Assembly (NCBI GenBank): GCA_900095095.1
Contig: FMBT01000365.1
Span: 148,151 to 212,150 of the forward strand
Source of the DNA: Fragilariopsis cylindrus CCMP1102
Taxonomy: Eukaryota > Bacillariophyta > Bacillariophyceae > Bacillariales > Bacillariaceae
Direction of reading: 5' to 3'
Length of the DNA stretch: 64,000 nt
The number at the start of each line of letters is the position of its first letter. Within the stretch, counting starts at the first letter, position 1. The notes beneath the pieces are model-generated. The model worked only from the letters and a program-made list of their open reading frames with translations, was not told the origin of the DNA and searched no databases. Both the position numbers and the translations under genes were made by a program. Below, one piece after another: positions 19,181 to 64,000 of the stretch.

Positions 19181-21969
19181 ATGACAGAAATTACCAACAA
19201 TGAGGAGACGACGAAGGAATCCAATTCTAATAAAAGTACATGGGGTGGTATGCTTAGATCGTTTTTTTCGACATCCTCTCTCGCCACTGTATTTATGGTA
19301 GGGTATGTTTTTTTTGCATTATTCAACCTGTAAGTAATAAATGAATCTGCATGGGGTGCATTTGTCTTTATGTAAAAATGATTTTGGAGGTGAAGTTTTT
19401 GTGTGATCACAGCCAACATGCATGCCTCAATTTGCTCACAAATATTATCCATCATAATTTGTAATTGTATCAATTAAATTGAATTGAATCCAAAAAAGTT
19501 ACGGGCTGATGCATCCGTTGACGAAAATTAATCTAGATAAGTACGAACCCGATGACTTTATCCGTCCGCTATGGGATACAGAAACTAAAATGGCAATGAA
19601 AGTGTATCTGAGCATGAAACCAAAATTTGAAGAATCATTTTTATTGTCAGAATTTGAAGCAACGCTACCACCGGATCAATACGAGGAACAAGGACAACCA
19701 GACACGGTTTTATTGTGGAAGGAATACATCAATACCGCGTCTCTTTCCAAAACATTTCTCATATCTAGTCTAGATTGCATTGGTAACGACAACGGTATTT
19801 GTAACACTGACGACGACGTCGACGAAAGCAACGATGCGTCTCTTAAATTTGCTCGAGATTGGTTGGATACCCAAGATAAAGCTAAACTAGATGATGATGG
19901 AAGTATTCTATCAACATCCAATCTGCTGCTGGACAAGGAATAGAATCTACGTCATTACTTTTAACCGCTGGACAAGGTATTTCGAATAAAATAAATTCTC
20001 TATTAGTCTATCTTGGAATTGCAGAGAAAGAAAAGAAGCAGCAGAAGAAATCATCGCCGCTAGTAAGGGTATTCTTGATCGTTCGAATGTATTTTTACCG
20101 AAATCTTCACCAATGTGGAAAAGTCTTATGTCCAATTCAACTATTTACGTACACGTGGTGGTTGTACGAGAACAATACCACGTAGATAAACCGGAAACGA
20201 CATTCAATGAAGCTTCGATGGCATTAGATCAAGCTTCTCGAACGCATTCCTTGTTACTTGGGACAGTCGATTTAGTTAAATACGACGTACCAAATCACTT
20301 GGGTAAGCCCGGTAGAATCCTCTTCCATGATTTATCTTATTTGTTTCGGAAACATATCTTACTGAACGACGAAGTTGCTAAACAGCGACCACCATGGGAT
20401 ATGGCGGTAGCCAAACCAGAATATTACGCCGCTTATGAACATGCACAACAAATGAAAGCAGATGGAAGTGGATACCCATACTGGAAACCAGAAGTTGCTA
20501 TAAAGTATCTTATTGATGAAGATTCGTATCCAATGGATTTGGCCCACGTTTCGGGAATGGTAAGTCATTCATTATATCATATGTTTTTGCATGATCTGAT
20601 CTGATCATGATTGTGTGCGATTTGCTTTTTGTTTTGTTTTACATAGTAATTCACTTATCATCTAATACTAGGTGTTATTATTTGTGTATGGTTGGTGCCT
20701 TAAAATGTCGTATAGGATTTCGTACGCGTGAAAAAGAGCACCTCGCACCCGTCCGGAATTGCCCATATTCCCGCATTACACGTCGACGAAATTGGAATGA
20801 CGAGCGATAAATATATCCCAATTAACGGAACTATTACTAGTCTACCGCTGCATATTTCGTTTGATCGAAGTGACATGGAGGAGGAACAACACCATGGCCG
20901 TGCAAAAACTGCAACAGCAGGAGGGATCAGTCCAGCACGGTGGCGTCTCCTCCAACATCTATCGAAGTCATTAGAATCCCAAAAGGAGTTAGGATTCGAA
21001 CAATCCGATATCGACGATTTACGCCACTTAATTGCCGATACAAATGTGATGCTACTGGGAATTACTCTCCTTGCATCGGCTCTTCATATGCTATTTGAAT
21101 TTTTAACGTTTAAATCTGAAGTTTCCTTTTGGCAGAATAACTCTGATTTGACGGGATTATCCGTTCGCTCGCTCTTTCTTGATATGGTGGGTCAATTTAT
21201 AATCATCCTTTATTTGATCGATCAAGAAACGAGTTTGCTCATAACGGTAACAAGTGGCTTCGGGGTATTAGTTGCCCTTTGGAAATGTCAGAAAGCCGCA
21301 GGATTTGCCATCGTACCTCTTTCTGATGATGATAAGAAAAAGAAATATTCTATCATCAATTTTTTGCCTCGAATATTTGGATATCAATTCAAGGCAACGA
21401 GACTGGAATCATATTCCAAAAAATCTGCTTCTTCCAGCAACGGAGATGGAAATGAAGAGCAAAGTGGCAGCAATAAAACTGTTGAGACTCATACTCCTGA
21501 TCTGCAACTATTAACTATTGAAGCTGACCGAAAGGCGACTAAATTGCTAGGCTCTACTCTACTTCCCTTTGTACTTGCATATACACTTTACTCTTTGATT
21601 ATTCAAGAACACGTTTCGTGGTATTCTTGGCTTGTAACATCTGCCTCGTCGGCTGTATATGCATTTGGTTTTGTCCTAATGACTCCTCAGCTCTTCCTCA
21701 ATTACAAGATGAAGAGTGTTGCACATCTGCCATGGAGAGTCCTGGTATACAAAAGCCTGAATACTTTTATCGACGACCTCTTTTCATTTATTATTCGAAT
21801 GCCTACAATGGCCCGCATAAGTTGCTTTCGAGACGACATTGTTTTCTTCATTTATCTCTATCAACGGTGGCTGTATCCAGTCGATACTTCGCGACCAGTG
21901 GAAGGTGGAGGGGATGCACCTCAGTCTACAGCTAAAACTAATGCAACTGAAACCAAGAAGAACCAATAA
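19181..21969 (+). CDS. CLPTM1: CLPTM1-family membrane protein
   Basis: Exons 19181-19302, 19499 to about 19900, about 20025-20559, and 20716-21969. The family is ER/Golgi multi-pass and includes human CLPTM1 and CLPTM1L. Typical blocks are visible: STIYVHVVV; YPYWKPEVAIKYLIDE; SLPLHISFDR; ALHMLFEFLTFKSEVSFW; DLTGLSVRSLFLD; then in the last exon FVLMTPQLFLNYKMKSVAHLPWR, NTFIDDLFSFIIRMPTM and DDIVFFIYLYQRWLYPVD. The first exon encodes a hydrophobic anchor (SSLATVFMVG). The weak point is the junction after exon 2. The frame that starts at 19509 hits TAG at 19941, while the next conserved block is in another frame, so an extra small intron or an indel lies between about 19890 and 20025. Human members affect GABA-A receptor trafficking; the role here is unknown. 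Confidence 0.9.
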
Positions 21970-22139
21970 ACAAAACTACAATCGAATAAACTAGATCTCA
22001 ACGCATACAAATGTCAAATTCTATTGGGTCTTAATAAATACGACTACCTTAGAATTTATTACTATTCAAATATGGGAAATTAATATCCAAATAGGGGACC
22101 CAAAACAAACCAGATTAGTGTATACACCCAAGATAATCA
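21970..22139. other. Short 3' gap between CLPTM1-like and cyclophilin genes
   Basis: 170 bp between convergent stop codons, AT-rich. Both 3' UTRs must lie here. Confidence 0.5.
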
Positions 22140-24101
22140 TTATCGAAGTTGTCCAGAATCGGCAATCGTAACTGGTTGTTTGTTTATTAAATTAAATTAA
22201 ATTGAAAATCGGTGGACCAAACGAACGTTGTTAGTTAACTGAATTTTAACACATTCTACTTAAAACGACAGCAAAAAGACCAATACAAATTGATAATCCT
22301 CACCTTTTACGCGAGTAGTACCAGAATCGCTTCCTACTAGTTCAATTGCAGAAACTACATTCTGACCGGAGATCACCTAATCGAATTTAACAAAGAGAAA
22401 AGAAAGAGATCGTAAGTCTCTTTTCGTTTCATTTTTTTTAAGTCGTTCAGTTTCGTACTAACAGATTTGACTTGATACGATTGGACTAACTTGACTTACT
22501 TTTCCGAATACAACGTGTTTATCATCTAATATAATGACAGGATATACCAGAGAATTAAAATTAAATATGTATTGAGTGCAGTTTTTGTTGTCGGAGCTTG
22601 ACTCTTAGAAGGAACATATATTTTCGAACTTACCTAGCCAAGCAGTTTCGGCAGTACATAGAAAGACTTTCAAATTAGAAAAACAAAACATAAAATCAAA
22701 CCAGTGAGTAACACTCATCTTCAATGTTCCTTGCGATCAGTGTTCCCATGTAACGCTACCATTTAAAATATCAAGTAGAAAAAGCTTCTACAACAGGATT
22801 TGACAAGATCATCACTTACACTGAGACCCATTAGAATTAGCACCAGCATTCGCCCTTCACGTAACACAGCAAACAAGTATCATACGATATCAGGCAAAGA
22901 ATAATAATGAGTATCAAAACGACTGTTTGTACTAAATAATCGTGGCGAGATTATTGTAGCGTTCTTTTTCTGCTTTTCATTATTTCGTTACCTACATTGA
23001 AAGAATTCCTGTTCTATCCTCCCCGAGCAATATAACAAAGTATGATTGATTCAAAGAGTGTGAGTATATTTGTTATAGTCAATTCCATAAAGAATACGAA
23101 CAAAATAAGGACTTGATTGTTACCAAGTTGCAGTAATCACATACCCTGTATGCTTCAATTTGACTTTTGGAAAAATAGAATGTCATCAGAAGAGATCGAA
23201 GAGAAATTGTGAGTGGAAAATTCACAAACACATTCGCACACACTCAAAACCCAGGATGCAAAATGAGATTACATGTATCAGGGCTTTTATTACCACTGGC
23301 ATTCATACGTACAGTTTTCGTCAGCGAATTTCTCACCGTAAATCTAGCAAAGAAATTAAGATAATCAAAAGGAAAAATATGTCAGAAATAAAACTCATTT
23401 AACTCCAGTTGAATCACACAATGATCTATGGAAGTACTTCAATATTCGACATCACTCACGCTTTCGCCACCTGTTCCATTTCCCCTAAAACCGCAGTAGT
23501 TCATAGCGAAAAAAAAGTAGAATTATATTAAGAAGAAAAGAGCAGCGACACGAACGATCATCGAGATTGAAAAACGTTTTGATGAGATCATGGTCATACT
23601 GTACAAACAATAATAACATTCAAAGTTCCTACACATCTCCTAGATTTTTTCTCCTTGTTTATTTTTCTCTATTTTTACCTCGTAAAGTCGCCACCTTGGC
23701 ACATGAATCCTGGAATGACTGCATATACATGGAAAGAAAATGAACGAATCAAGTCAAACCGTAAAACAAACAAAATGTTGAGCGGGATCGAAGTGTGTCA
23801 TTCTCACAGATGTGTACGCTCAAAGATACACACGCACACATATATACCGAATATATTATACAATGTGCGACATGCTCTTACCCCGATGAAAGCTTGATCC
23901 TTTAAAATGCAATGGCTTTCCACTCTTTCCACTTCCTTTCTCTCCAGTACACAACGCACGAAAGTTTTCAGCTGTCCTTGGGACGACATCGGCACGTAAT
24001 TCCATTTCAATTCTACCTCTTGGGCTCCCACCGATAGAAATATCAAAAAATACAACTGGATTAGAATCACTCATATTGTCGTTGTTATCGTCGTTAGTCA
24101 T
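22140..24101 (-). CDS. Cyclophilin (peptidyl-prolyl cis-trans isomerase) split into 11 exons
   Basis: Minus-strand exons in order: 23882-24101, 23679-23718, 23460-23484, 23313-23343, 23145-23163, 22996-23013, 22820-22854, 22634-22666, 22500-22525, 22304-22376, 22140-22171. All ten introns are GT-AG and every junction keeps frame, giving 183 aa. The joined product is a standard single-domain cyclophilin [80 protein letters not shown], and IADSGQL at the end. Catalytic Arg/Phe ([11 protein letters not shown]), Trp (AWLD) and His (KHVVF) are kept. No obvious targeting signal; the second Met (residue 10) is an alternative start. Eight exons are 18-40 nt. Divergent from the RAD7-like gene, convergent with CLPTM1-like. 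Confidence 0.95.
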
Positions 24102-24470
24102 CCTCTTGTTACAATGATGATGTGTTTTCTTTTTCGATCTATAAATCGTGGTCTGCCGATGTTATGTTTTCTTTCGCTCTCTCGAAAGATTTTCAAATGA
24201 TGATTTTTATTTTGTAAGAAATTCACAAAAAAACCAATCTTAGTTTGCAGGGCCACGCTGAATCGAGTCCCGCATGAATTCAATTTTTCTCTGCGTCACT
24301 TTTTTCGCCATTTCCGCGAATGAGAATGTGAGAATCAGAAAAAAAAAGAATAACAGATACTCCCACCGTTAGCTAAATCCATAATTTTCATTTCTAAACA
24401 ACATCCACTTGAACAAGTATATTGAATATTGAGCACCACCACCACCCAATTACAAACTATCTTCATCATC
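24102..24470. promoter_or_regulatory. Divergent region between cyclophilin and RAD7-like gene
   Basis: 369 bp, A/T-rich with a poly-A run near 24340. No gene, and no named motif found. Confidence 0.4.
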
Positions 24471-37957: not shown

Positions 37958-40568
37958 TTATTCTTTATTCCGTTGTATTATTTCAAGGTAACGAATTAAT
38001 CGAATGGATGACAATCCGATGACTAATATTGCATAATCTATTTGATCCCATGAATTATAATACGTAGCTATCATGATTTGGATAGACCAACTAATAACGC
38101 CCAATGGTGAAGATAAAATATTCTTTCGTATTAGAGACATCATAAATGCTGTTGTTAGCCGACTAGAACCACTCACACCAATGATTGTACCGAATTGAGA
38201 GGAAAATCCATCGGCTAGGAATAATACAGGTAGAACGAATCTTAGTACCCTTAAAATGTGACAACAAATCTGCTCATCTCGTGGACGAGTGACATCATCT
38301 TGTTGTCGCTGCTGCTGCTGCTGCTGTGTTGTGTTGTTGCGTTGAATCTTGTTGAGTGATTATTTCAGTACTAGAATCTACTTCGGACGTAATATCTTTG
38401 CTGCTTAAGGTATTGTTGGTGGATGCTGGTAATATTGTAGACAAAGCCGTAGTATAAAGTTTACCGATGAGATAGTAAATCGAAACATCATTTTGATGCA
38501 ACGTGCCGGCCTTGACCTGATGACAAAGAGGAAAAACTGTCAACAAAGTAATCATATGAGGTGTCCAGTGAGGAAGATTGATCCAATCCATAAGTAGAGA
38601 GCACATCATTGGCATTAGGTAGAATACTAAATAACATATTGTTACATTGAATTCCTCCAACGCTTCAAGGACACTACATTTCCACATTAGAATTGCGAAC
38701 GAACCAGCAATCATAATGGCCTTTGCTATCGTCTCGAAAATTTTGAGTGACATTTTTAGGAGTTGTATCGTTAAGACCTTAAATACCTCTTCAACATCTT
38801 TCAGCCAGATTGAAATTTTATGAAATTCTTGTGATAAGCTCGTAATTTGTTGAGAGGATATCTCATATACTTTTCTGACCGTAAGAAAGAAAGATGAACT
38901 TCTTATTCCCAATAATATCAAATTAATTCCATCAGAAGTAGCCTTTGAAAGGTATTGTACAATCGAACGTAGAAAGACTATCAATCTCTGCCAGCTAGAA
39001 TGTATAATTCGATCAGCAGCACGGTGATGACACTTCTTCTTATTAGGCTGGTCTGGAGGAGGGCATACCGGTATACTTGTTTGTTTTTGTCCTTCGAAAG
39101 ACACATCAATACTTATAGTCGGACTTATGGATTGTCCATCATCATCATCATTATCATCACCAATTATTTCTTTACCATCACTACTACTACTACCCATGAC
39201 ATCCACAATTTGAGATACATGAGCTTGATCTGTATCGTAGCCAACACCTTCATTATGACGTGGATTGTTGTCACTCGTCGTATGAGATATAATATCTGGA
39301 TTATCTACATCACTAGATGTACTTAGGGATGAAGCGTTGGATTCTCCAGCAAGACTTCCACATATACTCATGGGGATATCATTATCTATCGTCGTATCCT
39401 CTTCTTCATGTTGGTCATCATCATCATTATCATCGTCGTCGTCATCATAATCGTCTTCAAGATCGATTAATTTACACGATGATGTTGATGATTCTTTCGT
39501 TCCAATCGTAATCGGCGACATAAGTTCTTCTGGAACACTATACGTCGCAGGTGTAGCATCAGATGAATCGTCATTATCATTTAAATGACTTAATATGGTG
39601 TTGTGAGATTTATTTATTTGTTGTTGTTGTTGTTGTTGTTGTTGTGTAGTACTAGTAGTAAAATCGTTGTTATCTATTATTAAAGCACGGATTTCTGAAG
39701 AATTTTCTACTGATTTTAGCCGCTCTACAGATTTTGGAATTGTTTTCTGACATCGACGGATTATTGGACGTTTAATGATAGGATCGTGTAGATTATTTGT
39801 TGTTCTCAACCGTGATGATGATTTATTATTATCTGAAGTAGTGGAGGATCCTATTGTTGTGTTTTTGTTGTTGTTGTAGATTTGGTTATTATTTGTTGCT
39901 TTCTGGGTTTTGTCTTTGTTCGTAACATTGGTATTATCACTGTAATCAATATTAGTGGACTCGTCTTGAAAACCTGGAGGAGGTCGTATGGATTTCTTGT
40001 CTTTTATATCATTGTTGTCGTTGTCGTTGTCGCTGTCGAACATTACCTCCTGCTTGTGGTAAAAAAGAGAATTTTCGATACTCGCTCCAACGGCACCTTC
40101 TCCCTGACGATGTTGAAATTGTTGGCCGTAAAGATCAACATCAACATCAACATCAATATCAACGACGCGATTATCACCTCCGTCATCGTTGTCATTCCTT
40201 AAATCGATTCTATGAACATCACTATTTGTATTTGTAAGCGATAGAGGTGAGGACATGAATTGTTCCTCCAACACTGTAGACTCCGTTACTTGTACAGTAG
40301 TAGTAGTAGTAGTAGTAGTATTCGTTTCCCATGGATTACTAGGAACAGGACTTAAAGGGTTACGGTTTGCTGTTTCGGTAGCAGACGCAGATATAGAATG
40401 ACGAAGCAAAGTTTGATGATGTTTGTCATCGTTATCGTTATCGTCGTCGTCAATGTTATCATTCTTTATATCATTATTATTATTATCATTATTATTCTCG
40501 GTCGCAAAAAGACCACCCGGTAAAAAGAAAGAATCAACAAGAGCGGAATCATCTTTGTCATCATTCAT
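37958..40568 (-). CDS. Unknown multi-pass membrane protein with long acidic low-complexity N-terminus, one frame break
   Basis: I do not recognise this family. From Met 40568 the first 520 residues are Asn/Asp/Ser-rich with a polyQ run and no clear domain. A hydrophobic C-terminal half begins near LIVFLRSIVQYLS, with candidate membrane helices at LILLGIRSSSFFLTV, IAKAIMIAGSFAILMWK, ICYLVFYLMPMMCSLLM and MITLLTVFPLC. The frame stops at 38295, but coding continues in the next frame (DDVTRPRDEQICCHILRVLRFVLPVLFLADG, then helices to the stop at 37958). The switch falls in a CAG/GCA trinucleotide run at about 38,320-38,345, so a length error there is likely. The tail (WSIQIMIATYYN, YAILVIGLSSIRLIRYLE) looks like a final membrane hairpin. 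Confidence 0.6.
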
Positions 40569-57380: not shown

Positions 57381-60300
57381 ATGAGCGAAGCGTGCATGGT
57401 GGAAATCCACCATCGTCATCAGATCAGAACGAGAAACAACGAGGGAGGAGGAGGTAGATCTAGTAGAAGACCGAGAGAACCTGGTACATCAGATGATGAC
57501 GCCCCTCGTCTACCCATCGGGATGGAAATCTCAAATAATAGCAACAACGGCGATAGCGATAACAATAACGGTATGCTGAACAATGAGGAGGAGGAGGATG
57601 ATGACCACAGTAATAACAATAACAACCATCACTATAAGATGGAAGTAGATGATTCATCTTCTCTCTCACACTCAATTCAACAAGACGTTTCTTCCGGTCA
57701 GTCTTCATCGTCATCCTCATGTCAACAACAACAGCAGCCTCAACAATCGCAACAAAATACTAATCACACGAATCACCCAAGACGGAATTCCCCTTCCCCG
57801 AAACAAGTAACAGATGATAGTTGTGAAAGTGAAGATACGGAAAAGGAAAAAAGAAATGATGATGCAGATACTGATGATTCAATGCGGCATCCACAACATC
57901 ATCAACAGCAACAACAACATCATCCACAACAAGATGAAGTTAATTATAATGGGAAGAACGCAGTACAAGTAGTTCACAACACTGCTACTTGTACCAGAAG
58001 GAATAATGATGACAACAACAATGTTTACTCTCATGGAGAACAACTCCAGCAACAACACCAGCAACAACCATCATCACGTGGCATGAAACGAGCTGGACCT
58101 GTAATGGAGGAGGAGGAAGGAGGAGGGTGATAGAAGCAGTGACCAACAACAACAGTCTTCTTCCGCTGTAACACAATCCTCCGATAAGAATCATCGATCG
58201 CCTACCCTTCCACAACATGAACGAATACAGCACGTTGAAGCGGCTGATATTAGTTATCGTTGTACACCTGCATGTATTAGATTAAGAGAGATGCTTGTGT
58301 CACGGCTATCAATAATTGCTCCGGCTGGTAGAATACAAGTTGTAAGTTTATTTGTTGCGTTTGTATGTACGTCTGTTTTTGTTTCGTTTTGATGCTAAAT
58401 GCTAGATGGAATCCCTTTAGGCTTACACATTAATCTTACTATTATTATCGTTATCATTATCTTTGTGTGTTTAGATCGATCTTTCAAAAAGAGGACTAGG
58501 AGAAGTTGATGCAGAACTGATTTGTAATACACTCCGAAGCAACCCGCAGATCGCGGTTTTGAAATTAGGTTACAATAACTTTGGTGATAAAGGGACTAGT
58601 ATGATAGCCTCCGGATGTGCCCAAGAAGGGAGACATCATCAAAATTTAACAGTTTTGGACTTAGGTTTCAATAGTGTAGGCGATGCGGGGTGTACGGCTC
58701 TTAGTTTACATATGGTGGCAGGAAATCATACACTTCGAAATCTTTTCTTATCTGGGAATCATATCGAACAGAAGGGTGCTATGGCACTTGCTAGTGCGAT
58801 ACTGCATGGTTGTAGTCTATCACGGCTCAATCTTTCCGCGAATAATTTAGGTGCAGATGGGATCAATGTTATAGCTCAATCAATAAGAGAGGCAGAATCG
58901 AGAGTCGAGCAACTACTTCAGAGACAGGGTGGTATCAAATTAGGATATAACATAAACCTGTAACCATTGAAGAATTGAATGTTGACAATGTATTCATGTT
59001 GTCAAAAGGCTTCGAAGCATTGTCTACCATGGTAATGACAAATTTCAACCTAAAGAACATTTCTTTGGCCAACAATGACCTTCATGACAGTGATTTGGCT
59101 TTATTGTCCCAATCACTCACTCAGAACAAGAAAATACCTGTAAAGTCTCTAGTCCTTTCCTTCAACAAAATTACGTGTGTCGGTGTGGAATGTTTAATGA
59201 ATGCTGTTTGGGGATCACCAACCTTAAAGGAAATCAAACTCGACAACAACCAGATGCAAGATCGTGGGGCACAACTTTGCTCTGTAGTTCTTGGTTCCAT
59301 TCGACTGGAGGTGCTTGATGTTAGCTTTAATAAAATATCGACTGTGGGAGTTAAGGCAATCATGAAGAGTCTTTCGGATAATGATTCTCTCAAACGGTTA
59401 GCACTCTGTGGTATTCCAATGGATCAAAATGCATCCAAGGCTGTATCATATGCCCTAGCATACAATCAGTCACTTCAACGATTGAATATTGATAGTTGTA
59501 GTGTAGGATATTCTGGACAACGACATATCGTTGCCGGTATCGTATCAAATCAATATACAAAACTGCAAGTTTTGACGGGATTTCCTCTTGCACGTAAGTT
59601 CAATATACGTATATATCTATCGATATCTTTGATTATTCAGATAATATTCTCTTTCTTCAACTTATATAAACTCACATCTTTTTCCATCGCCAAACTTACT
59701 ATAATTTTTGCTTCCAACAGCGATCATTATGACATTGGGACTGCCACAATTACCTGAGGAATGGGGAAATGATAGAGTCTTAAGCTTTGTTAGATTTATG
59801 TGGTCACATTGGAAATTAACAAAGACTGTAGAACCATCCAAAGAAGTTGATAAAGCAAAAGACCTATCAAGAGGACCCGCTCCTCCCTCGATGGTTGCTT
59901 CATCAGCAAAACGTGCATTCGGGTCTCTAAGCAAATCGGAGGAAGCAAGGATCGCTTTTCAGAACGAACTTCAGAACCAATTGATGACAACCCGATTATT
60001 GCTCCTGGTACGTCGATTCTTGTACGATCCCAGTCGGGAAATAATTTACAGGTTCCGACATGGGGGGAACAACAACTAAAAGAAGTTGCGGCAACAGCGG
60101 AGGCTGATTATGCACAACAAGCTGAATCGTGGTCTTCTTCTGAAATGGAGTCCATAGATCGATCAAACTACACGGGATCATCAGTGAGCTTATATAATCA
60201 AAATACAACGGCTATTGATTTCGAGCGACGAAATAGAAATTTAAGTTGGCTACGATCCCATCTTCAAACCCTAACAGAGGTTGGAAACCTTGCTTTCGAT

Positions 60301-60810
60301 GACGCTGACCTATGGCAACTTCATCAGTATTACATGTCCCCGGCTTACAATGCAGACACAGATGATGAAGACCATGTTGAAGAGGAAACAAACGAAGGTG
60401 AACAAACAGATTCAACGAAAACTCCACCTCCGACTCCTGCTCCTTCTGAATCAGAAAAACCAAGTATTGGTCGATCAATATCATTCCGAACTCTTGGAAA
60501 AGCTATTGAAGATACCGCTGTTCAAGTTAAACGTCCGAACAAAAGAAGTCCCTCGGAGGAAGAATTAAAACTTGAAGCGCGTGGTGTCAAACGTGCTAAG
60601 AATTCTACGCCACGAATCGCATATTACCCACGGGTCAAAGAACAACTCGAAGCCAAACCTTCCGCCCACACTCTCGCTTTGCTGAGACAACTAAAATATA
60701 TCGAGAGTGTCATGCTTGAAGGGAAGAATATTTACACCCTCAGAGATCAGGAAGATGATAGCTTTCCCAATGCAACTGATGTTGAAATGGTTTTGCTTGA
60801 TCTACTTTGA
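57381..60810 (+). CDS. LRR protein with Gln/His-rich N-terminus, frame-broken
   Basis: The N-terminus (57381 to about 58,340) is low-complexity: Gly/Arg, Asn/Asp, and polyQ/His stretches. A ribonuclease-inhibitor-type LRR array follows, from 58,475 (IDLSKRGLGEVDAEL) with repeats such as LKLGYNNFGDKG, LDLGFNSVGDAG, LNLSANNLGADG, and, after a frame change near 58,955, ISLANNDLHDSD, LVLSFNKITCVG, IKLDNNQMQDRG and VLDVSFNKISTVG. Introns are about 58,341-58,474 and 59,595-59,720. The C-terminal part (from about 59,990, again in a new frame) is unique: SWLRSHLQTLTEVGNLAF, SRSISFRTLGKAIEDTA-like, and HTLALLRQLKYIES near the end. Breaks at about 58,125, 58,955 and 59,980. I do not recognise the C-terminal domain; a scaffold role is guesswork. 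Confidence 0.72.
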
Positions 60811-61263
60811 GATGCTTTGCAAAACATCAAAGACGCGCAATTATTCATTCTTCTGAACATTAATAAAATATATCTGTAAATAAAATATATTTTTAACTGT
60901 TTCCCTTCTCCTGTTAACATATCGACAAATAGTGAAGATTAGTGATAGTTTGAATTCAAATAACCAGAGCAGTTATAGATAACAGAGCCAAGCAAAAAAA
61001 ATCTAACTAGAAACTACAGACAGTGTGTTATAAATTAATTTTGTGATAAATGGAAAAAAGGAACTAACTTAGCGTTGAATTTTCCACGTAGTCTTTACGT
61101 CCACACAAACTATTCAGCGATGTTGTTCGTTGTGAATTTGTGAATTTTCATACCGTATCTCTCAGACAACACCAAGAAGACTCTTTCTCGTTAGTCATTA
61201 CCATTACATTACATACTATACAATAGCTTTTTTTAATCAAAATAATAATAACAATAAGTCAAT
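60811..61263. other. Intergenic, AT-rich
   Basis: 453 bp between two same-strand genes. Nothing recognised beyond AT-rich runs and likely polyadenylation signals (AATAAA) near 60,865-60,885. Confidence 0.45.
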
Positions 61264-61874
61264 ATGGTTATGGAACGTACATACATTATGATCAGTAAGT
61301 AGAAACTTGTGCATCGACATAAAGGCAGGATCGTAGATGGCGTACAGTAATGCTGTGGTGCAAAGACTGAATGATATGAATTCCGTCCTCACCGTATTAA
61401 TCTTCTCGCCTCTTCCTAATCTCGCGTTTTACTTACCCCTAAACTACAATAGAGCCTGATGGCGTCCAACGTGGATTAACTGGTGAAATCATCAAACGAT
61501 TTGAACAAAAGGGATACAAGCTTGTTGCCATGAAGCTTACCAAACCATCCAAGGAACACATGGAAAACCATTACGCTGACTTGGCCAACAAGAAGTTTTT
61601 CCCTGGTCTAATTGAGTACATGACATCTGGTCCAGTTTGTGCCATGGTTTGGGAAGGAAAGAATGCTGTCCTAGAAGGACGTAAGATGTTGGGTGCTACC
61701 ATGCCAAGTGACTCTGCTATGGGTACTATCCGAGGTGACTTCTGTATCGAAGTTGGAAGAAATATCTGCCACGGAAGTGACGCTGTCGAATCCGCCAATC
61801 ACGAAATCGGTATGTGGTTCCCTGAAGGTGTCTGTGAGTGGACTCGTTGCGACGAGAAAAGTCTTTACGAATAA
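61264..61874 (+). CDS. NDK: Nucleoside diphosphate kinase
   Basis: Exons 61264-61294 (31 nt) and 61453-61874, joined in frame (A|AG), giving 150 aa, the family's usual length. Exon 1 encodes [10 protein letters not shown]; exon 2 begins KPDGVQRGL. All family markers are present: [22 protein letters not shown], the catalytic-His loop [12 protein letters not shown], and the C-terminal [13 protein letters not shown]. The enzyme equalises NTP pools through a phospho-His intermediate and makes GTP, UTP and CTP from ATP. It sits on the same strand as the LRR gene before it, the second exception to strand alternation. The last 45 bases of the CDS are repeated downstream within a tandem duplication. 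Confidence 0.97.
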
Positions 61875-62136
61875 GTCTTAGAACGTTCGTGATACGGGTG
61901 TACTTGTCAATGATGTCTAGAAAGATAATATATTATAGAGAAATTTCATCGAAAAAATGTCGTGTTGCCATGGTTTTTTGTAATGTCTGTGAGTGGACTC
62001 GTTGCGACGAGAAAGTCTTACGAATAAATCTTAGAACGTTCGTGATACGGGTGTACTTGTCAATGATGTCTAGAAAGATAATATATTATAGAGAAATTTC
62101 ATCGAAAAATGTCGTGTTGCTATGGTTTTTGTACCA
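61831..62136 (+). repeat. 155-bp tandem duplication at the NDK 3' end
   Basis: Copy 1 is 61831-61985 and includes the end of NDK; copy 2 is 61986-62136. Differences are four homopolymer runs each one base shorter in copy 2 (AAAA/AAA, TTT/TT, AAAAAA/AAAAA, TTTTTT/TTTTT) and two substitutions. The C-terminal NDK codons in copy 2 are therefore shifted out of frame. Confidence 0.92.
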
Positions 62137-62168
62137 TTCTAGAATATAGTCTTTTATAAATTGAATTG

Positions 62169-64000
62169 TTATTGCTCAGAATCTGGAACTCGTACACACA
62201 CATACACCGAATCATGATGACCGTGCATAATTCTGAGAGTATCATCTGTATATATTATATCACAAAATACTGACCCATGTCCTCCAATCGGTCTTTTCAA
62301 ATCAAATCGGAGGGTACCATCTTCTTCGAGTTTTTCATGTATGTGTGCACCTAGAAGCAATCTTGCAGCTAAACTGTTTGCATATTCTTGTAGATCACGA
62401 TTTGGTGCAGAGGATTGGTCGAATATTTTCTTCCATTCATCTATATCCATTTCCTCATCTTGAACCTCAAACGATCCACCTGAAAACCATATAGAGAGCC
62501 GATTCGGTATGTTCGGATCTGGTATGCTATAACCTTGTGTAGTTAGTATACCACGAATTGGCTTGGGTACAACATAGCAATCAGTATCAGATTTATCTCT
62601 GCTATTACCTTTCAGATCTTGACCAGGTTCGATTGTAACAGCAACAGCAATACTATGATGTAATTATCGACCGTAGAGATAAAGTACACGCAGACACACG
62701 AATCGTAAGTGAGTAAAGGATGTGAATTCCAACAGAAGATGCACGTTACTTTAAGATCTTTATTACTCGAATCAAATCGAGTCGAATCGAATCCAAACTT
62801 ACTCATATGTTTGCAGTCTGCATTCCCCTTTTCTTATATCCTGCATCAGACTTCGAGGTACGTGCAGCGGCCTACCGGGATTACTTGGATCAATCGACTG
62901 TATGTGATTGAACGACGCTTGAAAGGAACATGTTAAGTCAGCAGGTTTGAACATATCAAAACTTATACGACCTAAAGAATATCTATTCTCTCCTTTTTCA
63001 TTTTTCCCTTTGCATTCTGTGTAGGCCGGTTTAGATATTGTTAACCAATTGCCTTCTAGTTCATTTAGATTTAGATCCTTTAATCCGTTTTGATTGAAAT
63101 GGTTTTCGAGTAATTGTTGGCTATATAGTACAGTATATATAATATAGGAGTATATATATAGTATATAGATATAGATAAGATTTGATTTGAAAGAAGATAA
63201 AACAAGATGCTTCGTTAGATAAAGATCATCGAATAGTTATGTTGATTTCTTATTCCGGTACATTGTAGGAAGAATCGATCAACAATGATACGTTATTCTT
63301 GTTGTATCTATCATATCATAAAGTCATACAAAAACTTACCATTTCAAAAACTCTGGAGTATCAACACAACCACCAGATAATCGCAAATCTTCAATCAATC
63401 TCATCTTTACCATTTCGATATTGACTTTTGCAGTTGATGGCAAAGGGAAAATTTGTTATAAGAGGGGGCCCTGTAAACAAACAACCATCAGTACTACTGA
63501 TGATGCTTTGAGCTGATCCATTTTTCGATGAAATATCGTCATATTTGTAGTCTTCGTTCGAGATACTGACAATTCCAACAGCATCAGAGGATGCTAAGTC
63601 GCGACGATTTCCAGTAGTATGTTCAATCACGTTTTTAGCTGTAGTGTTTAGCTTACTACAAGGTTTGATTTCTTCGCTGCCCCCTCTCCCATACGGTTTG
63701 GTTATTTATTGCTGACGATGACTCGTCGTCTTCTGTGTTGTTGTTTATTCTTACTCTAGGGGAAGCTGCTGTGTTCTTGACCCACCATTTATTGTACACA
63801 TCCTGAGCCTCAACAGCTGCAGTATCGGCTAGCTTAGGTTCAATACCATGTAAAAAACATTCGCTATAGAATAGGGCAGAAGTATGGGCTCGTTTTCTTT
63901 CGGTTCGATCGAAGGGAGCTATGGGTTTTCTAAGAAGTGGAGCAACAGCATGGTCGTGCGTGACTCGTTGAAGTGACAATTCAGGCTGTTGCTCTTCGTC
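62169..64000 (-). CDS. Uncharacterised protein of a family known to me only from diatoms, 5' end outside window
   Basis: The reading frame is open at base 64,000, so the start lies to the right. Pieces on the minus strand: 64,000 to about 63,690 (HTSALFYSECFLHGIEPK, AAVEAQDVYNKWWV), then about 63,690-63,345 (VIEHTTGNRRDLASSDAVGIVSI; KVNIEMVKMRLIEDLRLSGGC), an exon to about 62,805 (NELEGNWLTISKPAYTECKG, YSLGRISFDMFKPADLTCS), and the last from about 62,655 to 62,169 (IAVAVTIEPGQDL; MDIDEWKKIFDQ; RFDLKRPIGGHGSVFCDIIY; LRIMHGHHDSVYVCVR). Frame changes are needed near 63,685 (a G run) and 63,450. The LEGxWLT and YSLGRxSFDMF blocks are familiar from diatom hypothetical proteins. The beta-rich fold suggests lipocalin/fibrillin-like binding, but that is a guess. 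Confidence 0.55.

Follow-up and report, generated by a model that had tools for sequence, protein, structure and literature searches.

A cyclophilin gene cut into micro-exons in a diatom, and a likely new intron in a sulfate permease gene copied antisense from one of its segments

The window, a stretch of 64,000 nucleotides from contig FMBT01000365.1 of the diatom Fragilariopsis cylindrus CCMP1102, contains 42 stop-to-stop frames of at least 150 amino acids, the longest of 779 amino acids. A cyclophilin gene is located at positions 24101-22140 on the minus strand. It consists of 11 exons with 552 nt of coding sequence, that is, 183 codons and the stop codon. All of the ten introns have GT-AG ends, and their lengths range from 108 to 194 nt. 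A convergent gene of the CLPTM1 family lies on the plus strand, with 170 nt between the two stop codons. The features are as follows (C followed by a number denotes a contig of the genome, or the gene on it).

20716..21969, plus strand: last long frame of the CLPTM1-family gene, convergent with the cyclophilin gene
23882..24101, minus strand: exon 1, 220 nt, ATG at 24101
23719..23881, minus strand: intron 1, 163 nt, phase 1, codon 73; site common to C253/C760
23679..23718, minus strand: exon 2, 40 nt
23485..23678, minus strand: intron 2, 194 nt, phase 2
23460..23484, minus strand: exon 3, 25 nt
23344..23459, minus strand: intron 3, 116 nt, phase 0
23313..23343, minus strand: exon 4, 31 nt
23164..23312, minus strand: intron 4, 149 nt, phase 1
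23145..23163, minus strand: exon 5, 19 nt
23014..23144, minus strand: intron 5, 131 nt, phase 2
22996..23013, minus strand: exon 6, 18 nt
22855..22995, minus strand: intron 6, 141 nt, phase 2
22820..22854, minus strand: exon 7, 35 nt
22667..22819, minus strand: intron 7, 153 nt, phase 1, codon 129; site common to C648/C401 and C29
22634..22666, minus strand: exon 8, 33 nt
22526..22633, minus strand: intron 8, 108 nt, phase 1, codon 140; site common to C299
22500..22525, minus strand: exon 9, 26 nt
22377..22499, minus strand: intron 9, 123 nt, phase 0
22304..22376, minus strand: exon 10, 73 nt
22172..22303, minus strand: intron 10, 132 nt, phase 1
22140..22171, minus strand: exon 11, 32 nt, stop codon ends at 22140

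The gene model was checked with a purpose-written splice-aware protein-to-DNA aligner, with paralogues and a solved structure as queries. The solved cyclophilin 4jjm_A gave the same ten introns and no extra one. The same ten were obtained with the paralogue C253, a weaker control since the C253 model was itself built with the window protein, and with the intronless paralogue C378, which added one spurious 33-nt skip. The scores were 544-647 on the minus strand, as against 31-40 on the opposite strand. The original prediction of an 11-exon cyclophilin gene with ten introns, an exactly kept frame and this series of internal exons was borne out in all these points by the realignment.

The window protein matches the PF00160 profile with an E-value of 2.9e-45 (154.8 bits; cut-off 21.7), and the domain is full-length (residues 18-178; profile positions 1-156 of 159). 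Its best match among solved structures is 4jjm_A (query residues 13-182 aligned; E-value 3.4e-87). The KSGKPLH loop is common to the window protein and the cytosolic cyclophilins represented by 4jjm_A. In this alignment the stretches that carry catalytic and ligand residues, including WLDxKH, are kept. These stretches, which splicing had been predicted to restore, thus appear intact. Judged from its sequence, the gene encodes a peptidyl-prolyl isomerase of the cytosolic cyclophilin type and is under coding constraint.

The micro-exons had been regarded as real coding units, and the distribution of mismatches agrees with this. Over exons 2-9 (75 codons), the mismatches at the first, second and third codon positions were 10, 10 and 42 to C253, and 10, 6 and 39 to C378. 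Since the mismatches lie mostly at third positions, the micro-exons seem to be under coding constraint. It is in gene anatomy that the window gene differs from the cytosolic cyclophilins: ten introns in 0.552 kb correspond to 18 introns per kb of coding sequence. Values of 6-7 introns per kb are given for intron-rich lineages (PMC3174169), and averages of 0.79 and 1.52 introns per gene for two diatoms (PMC3145265).

Several other segments of the window are repeated elsewhere in the genome. A coding piece of the CLPTM1-family gene (165 nt within 20843-21010) has an 86% copy at C679:759799-759963 and at C37:719-883, in which the protein match extends over only 42 residues (76%); this is possibly another copied segment. 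The 205 nt at 61984-62188 are repeated at C809:4564-4770 with 93% identity. A repeated element at 2200-2730 takes most of the 59 matches listed and is found at four places in C464 with a spacing of about 3.84 kb. The region 59554-63900 overlaps the start of C182 (1-4376) at 99%, and the two are probably adjoining contigs or a second haplotype.

The genome that was searched comprises 67.9 Mb in 818 contigs. It contains 77 matches to PF00160, and many of the cyclophilin matches are in contig pairs; silicon transporters are also plentiful, as fits a diatom (27 matches to PF03842). A second copy of the window cyclophilin locus was not found in the whole-genome search, and there was no match to the window cyclophilin in the viral contigs. 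Two other cyclophilin genes are similarly rich in introns. C80 has at least eight introns, with internal exons of 20, 21, 33, 64, 17, 72 and 18 nt, where the first donor site was adjusted by eye. Its N-terminus contains AAFAPATR, and this AAFAP-type leader looks to us like a diatom plastid-targeting signal, which would suggest plastid import. C253 and its presumed allele C760 have six introns, and their exons are as short as 9 and 15 nt. The exons of this pair differ by one substitution in 519 aligned bases with no gaps, as against 31 substitutions in 828 (3.7%) and 36 gap columns in the introns; this means that the tiny exons have been kept. The C378/C812 cyclophilin is intronless, with an open frame of 208 amino acids, and other cyclophilin loci have few or no domain introns.

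A genome search with 22140-23881 at E-values up to 5 gave only one ectopic match; it should be mentioned that scoring in this search is confined to the best candidates and that very common words are passed over, which could let an abundant or very old family escape. The whole gene, at E-values up to 0.001, gave the same single ectopic match apart from paralogue exons. The match is between 22411-22541 of the window and C549:38593-38722 (92%; E-value 1e-44). The segment that seems to have been copied is the following.

22412..22540, plus strand (antisense to the cyclophilin gene): donor block, 129 nt, GTAAGT...TACTAAC (22456)...CAG

The donor block covers exon 9 completely, together with the adjoining end of intron 8 and the greater part of intron 9, in reversed orientation. 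In C549 the corresponding bases (38594-38721, minus strand) form an apparent 128-nt intron of a sulfate permease (SulP) gene, which has a PF00916 domain and a STAS domain. The copied sequence runs flush from GT to AG, and GTAAGT, TACTAAC and CAG are all present in the putative intron. TACTAAC is the branch-point consensus. Donor and insert differ by seven substitutions and three gap columns in 130 positions (7 of 127 aligned sites, 5.5%).

The SulP region of C515 is 97% identical to that of C549 over 1771 aligned bases. At about position 71229 it has no insert, and the residues LRSSAW are uninterrupted; the insert in C549 splits the same residues in phase 1. The SulP paralogue C635/C145 (46% identical protein) is also without an intron at this site, which polarises the change as a gain. 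Exon 9 fixes the direction of copying as from cyclophilin to SulP: it is coding and matches solved cyclophilins (KHVVFG, inside the copied block, is common to 4jjm_A), and it is the part that shows the most decay in the copy. The SulP insertion is likely to be a new intron caught together with its source, and it would be spliced out of the transcript. C515 and C549 are assumed from their 97% identity to be haplotypes, and a recent duplication is another possibility. Two differences in the length of T runs shift the frame of C549 relative to C515; they are either sequencing errors or signs that this copy is decaying, in which case splicing would be of no consequence. The divergence between donor and copy (5.5%) may be compared with that between the SulP contigs (3.0%) and between the introns of C253 and C760 (3.7%). 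By these values the copying and the separation of the contig pairs are of a similar order of age, with the copying perhaps the older.

The part of the insert derived from exon 9 has substitutions at 4 of 25 sites, as against 3 of 102 in the intron-derived part (Fisher p 0.028). This faster change of the former coding part raises the possibility of selection against exon signals. An intronic structured RNA behind the ectopic copy was considered and dropped, as no Rfam match was found in 21900-24300 at E-values up to 1. In nine contig pairs (30,099 aligned bases, some of them overlapping), there were ten other indels of at least 30 nt; none had GT-AG ends as aligned, and MAFFT shifts such ends, as it does in the SulP insert.

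Related introns were also found within C253. Introns 76.1 and 116.1 match in the same orientation with 88% identity over 77 nt (E-value 1e-24); along their full length they agree at 77 of 106 aligned bases, with 20 gap columns. The local score was 109, whereas 1000 mononucleotide shuffles gave no score above 30, and a GTT repeat is part of the match. The pair is present in both C253 and C760. Site 76.1 is common to C80, and site 116.1 is not, which suggests that 116.1 is the copy.

For the copying step of the SulP insertion, templated break repair primed by microhomology is favoured over reverse splicing. The empty site of C515 and the donor, compared by eye, share one G at the right junction and TCGTA across the left, a microhomology that is partly forced by the requirement for GT and whose first base is C, not T, in C549. 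If C515 represents the ancestral state, the insert is flanked by GTA at either end. Eight substitutions fall within the 50 nt that follow the insertion (binomial p 1.3e-4, post hoc), and the densest 50 nt contain nine (scan p 0.002). Such a cluster is what error-prone synthesis would leave.

The insertion might instead be a transposed intron. On this view an antisense transcript of the cyclophilin locus would have been spliced at 22412-22540, and the intron inserted by reverse splicing into the mRNA of SulP; reverse transcription and recombination would then have carried it into the gene. The flush GT and AG ends of the copied block fit this route, as does the fact that GTAAGT and TACTAAC each occur once on the plus strand of the gene region, in both cases within the block. 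The CLPTM1-family gene ends only 170 nt away, and read-through from it could transcribe the donor block in antisense. The related intron pair of C253 is also as predicted by transposition; both of these are modelled introns, whereas the SulP donor is not an intron in the sense direction. The two strands of the window together hold only two cases of GTAAGT with an AG at 129 nt, and the flush ends therefore call for an explanation. However, selection for a spliceable insert explains them under either route, and selection for harmless splicing would likewise leave only flush inserts. Moreover, the match between the donor and the empty site extends to two bases ahead of the GT, and the substitutions are clustered beside the insert, as break repair predicts. 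We consider transposition possible for the SulP insertion, although not probable. Reverse splicing may have acted above all in the C253 intron pair.

Intron sites were then compared among the cyclophilin genes. A total of 49 cyclophilin loci, covering part of the 77 PF00160 matches, were modelled, and the sites were compared in 12 genes. Second copies, genes without domain introns and models scoring below 250, which are unreliable, were left out, as were C674, in which the one domain intron (48 nt) falls within an open frame, the introns before codon 45, and one intron at codon 53 of C436. The window gene, C80 and C253/C760 together have 24 introns at 22 distinct sites, which fall within about 135 codons. 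Only two pairs of sites are shared exactly among these three genes (p 0.078). With so many distinct sites, most introns of the three shredded genes were probably gained after duplication of the cyclophilin genes. Repeated gain is a simpler explanation than one ancestor with all 22 sites, in which the mean exon length would have been below 20 nt.

Over all 12 genes, nine site pairs are shared exactly, compared with 1.8 expected (0 of 1000 simulations reached this number). The window sites at codons 73, 129 and 140 recur exactly in other cyclophilin genes. It follows from this excess that some of the sites are either ancient or hot spots for insertion, and at least three of the ten window introns may be such. 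In addition, introns of 6 of the 12 genes lie within 7 nt of one another at codons 115-117, near the LSMAN motif (p 0.003). They occupy five different exact sites, which might reflect either sliding or an insertion hot spot.

These data bear on a second alternative, namely that an intron-rich ancestral cyclophilin gene existed, whose introns were kept in the window gene and lost in differing combinations by its paralogues. The excess of shared pairs among the 12 genes is in its favour, and so is the recurrence of site 129 in C29 and of site 140 in C299, though these paralogues are only 54% and 47% identical to the window cyclophilin (C299 is presumably PPIH-like). Mass loss of introns is also possible: in a tree of 15 rows, C80 with its eight introns is sister to the intronless C378 (support 96/95), and this sister pair agrees equally well with mass loss by retroposition and with gain. 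The same tree gives the window gene no firm placement. On the other side, 22 sites would have to be fitted into about 135 codons of one ancestral gene, exact sharing among the three intron-rich paralogues is not clearly above chance, and copying of sequence into apparent introns is directly seen in the SulP insertion and the C253 pair. Retention from such an ancestor thus seems rather unlikely as the main source of the window introns. Local gain, on the basis of the site comparison and the observed copying, is the likelier reading. The original prediction of local intron gain is accordingly kept for most of the introns, with the reservation that at least three of the ten sites may be old.

Splicing-dependent regulation of the gene had also been put forward. 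Micro-exons are described as regulated in other systems, and those of the window gene might serve regulated splicing of cyclophilin in the same way. However, of the 9 internal exons only two (18 and 33 nt) have a length divisible by three and could be skipped without loss of frame, the other 7 not, and retention of any of the ten introns leads to a stop codon within at most 15 codons. This is the pattern of constitutive splicing and not that of regulated cassettes with exons that can be skipped in frame. The proposal is not upheld by these features, and we regard it as very unlikely.

An intron-inserting element had been suggested as well, and a family of introner-like mobile elements would be expected to leave many near-identical copies in introns of unrelated genes. 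No such copies were found. Several introns of similar length lie in one gene, and two introns of C253 are related, which could point to such a family. The ten window introns, however, show no significant likeness to one another (best E-value 0.06), and the genome contains the single ectopic match described above. Further copies of the C253 introns were not found in the genome apart from GTT/TTC simple repeats, nor were any of the C80 introns. When 36 introns from nine cyclophilin genes and the SulP insert were compared, 11 weak pairs had E-values below 0.05 besides the C253 pair and the matches of SulP to window introns 8 and 9, all over 14-39 nt. The best was window intron 2 with an intron of C706 (E-value 8e-4; 33 nt at 82%); others joined an intron of C184 to one of C648 (E-value 0.001) and, over 16 nt, window intron 1 to the SulP insert. 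A placement of the introns by such a family is highly improbable: these comparisons largely refute a recent introner family and with it a repeated mobile element, and an old, decayed family may be considered possible.

On the sequence evidence, it is practically untenable that the window gene is a pseudogene or misread, since in spite of the intronless paralogue C378/C812 its 552-nt frame is open, all ten introns have GT-AG ends, the mismatches are biased to third positions and three queries gave the same ten introns.

The reading that we prefer, local gain after duplication by sporadic copying of short segments and with no repeated introner, seems reasonably probable. The coding sequence of the window gene would have been broken by spliceosomal introns, mostly gained locally after the cyclophilin genes had duplicated. 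Short existing pieces of about 110-130 nt would have been copied sporadically into genes, and the copying step would be templated break repair primed by microhomology. A copied piece would be kept when a donor site starts it and an acceptor site ends it, so that splicing removes it harmlessly. We infer that the ten window introns arose by such copying. No traceable donor for any of them was found in the genome searches. Footprints of staggered breaks were also sought at the window introns and rejected: flanking direct repeats are at chance level in all ten.

This proposal may be compared with known cases of intron gain. In Daphnia pulex, new introns show allelic presence and absence and were attributed to double-strand-break repair (Li et al. 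2014, PMC4202315). The SulP insertion is similar in that it is found in one of two presumed alleles, C549, and is absent from the other, C515. Most sources of the Daphnia introns stayed unknown in that report, and the few candidates were mitochondrial DNA, an rRNA gene, intron-like elements and doubtful foreign sequence; in contrast, the donor here is a nuclear protein-coding gene, copied with an exon and in antisense. Gained introns of Drosophila were tested against nuclear and mitochondrial sequence, and one was the reverse complement of a mitochondrial segment (PMC3296678). The E-values of the mitochondrial matches were weak (0.032 in the figure), and intron transposition was not found in the account given there. 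The SulP insert is likewise inverted, but its donor is nuclear and the match has an E-value of 1e-44.

The introners of Micromonas and fungi (PMC3488318) also provide new introns from copied sequence. Unlike them, the present case consists of one copy of one block and one intron pair, with no multi-copy family. With regard to intron transposition by reverse splicing (Yenerall and Zhou 2012, PMC3443670), the C253/C760 pair resembles an intragenic move, and the SulP insert has the flush GT-AG ends; the SulP donor, however, is in the sense direction an intron-exon-intron segment and not an intron. For Thalassiosira, widespread gain with many unique intron positions was inferred genome-wide (Roy and Penny 2007, cited in PMC3145265 and PMC3488318), whereas one gene family and a traced donor are concerned here. 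According to a review, none of the mechanisms proposed accounts for many introns, even among those gained recently, and as of 2012 the evidence for break repair consisted of introns resembling mitochondrial, not nuclear, DNA (PMC3443670). In the parts consulted of the open-access literature on micro-exons, intron gain, introners and cyclophilins, no account was found of a diatom intron that had been copied out of a nuclear protein-coding gene.

The origin of new spliceosomal introns is a question of long standing. In this diatom, one genome holds an apparently new intron, its empty counterpart and a nuclear donor in which the coding exon is still legible. Together with the contig pairs, the three cyclophilin genes cut at 22 sites make the origin of introns testable in one organism. 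We tentatively propose that new introns are now being made in this diatom by the copying of short stretches of ordinary nuclear genes, even of antisense exons, and that transcribed housekeeping genes may serve both as recipients, shredded by repeated hits, and as donors. If true, this would be a long-sought ordinary source of introns outside the introner families.
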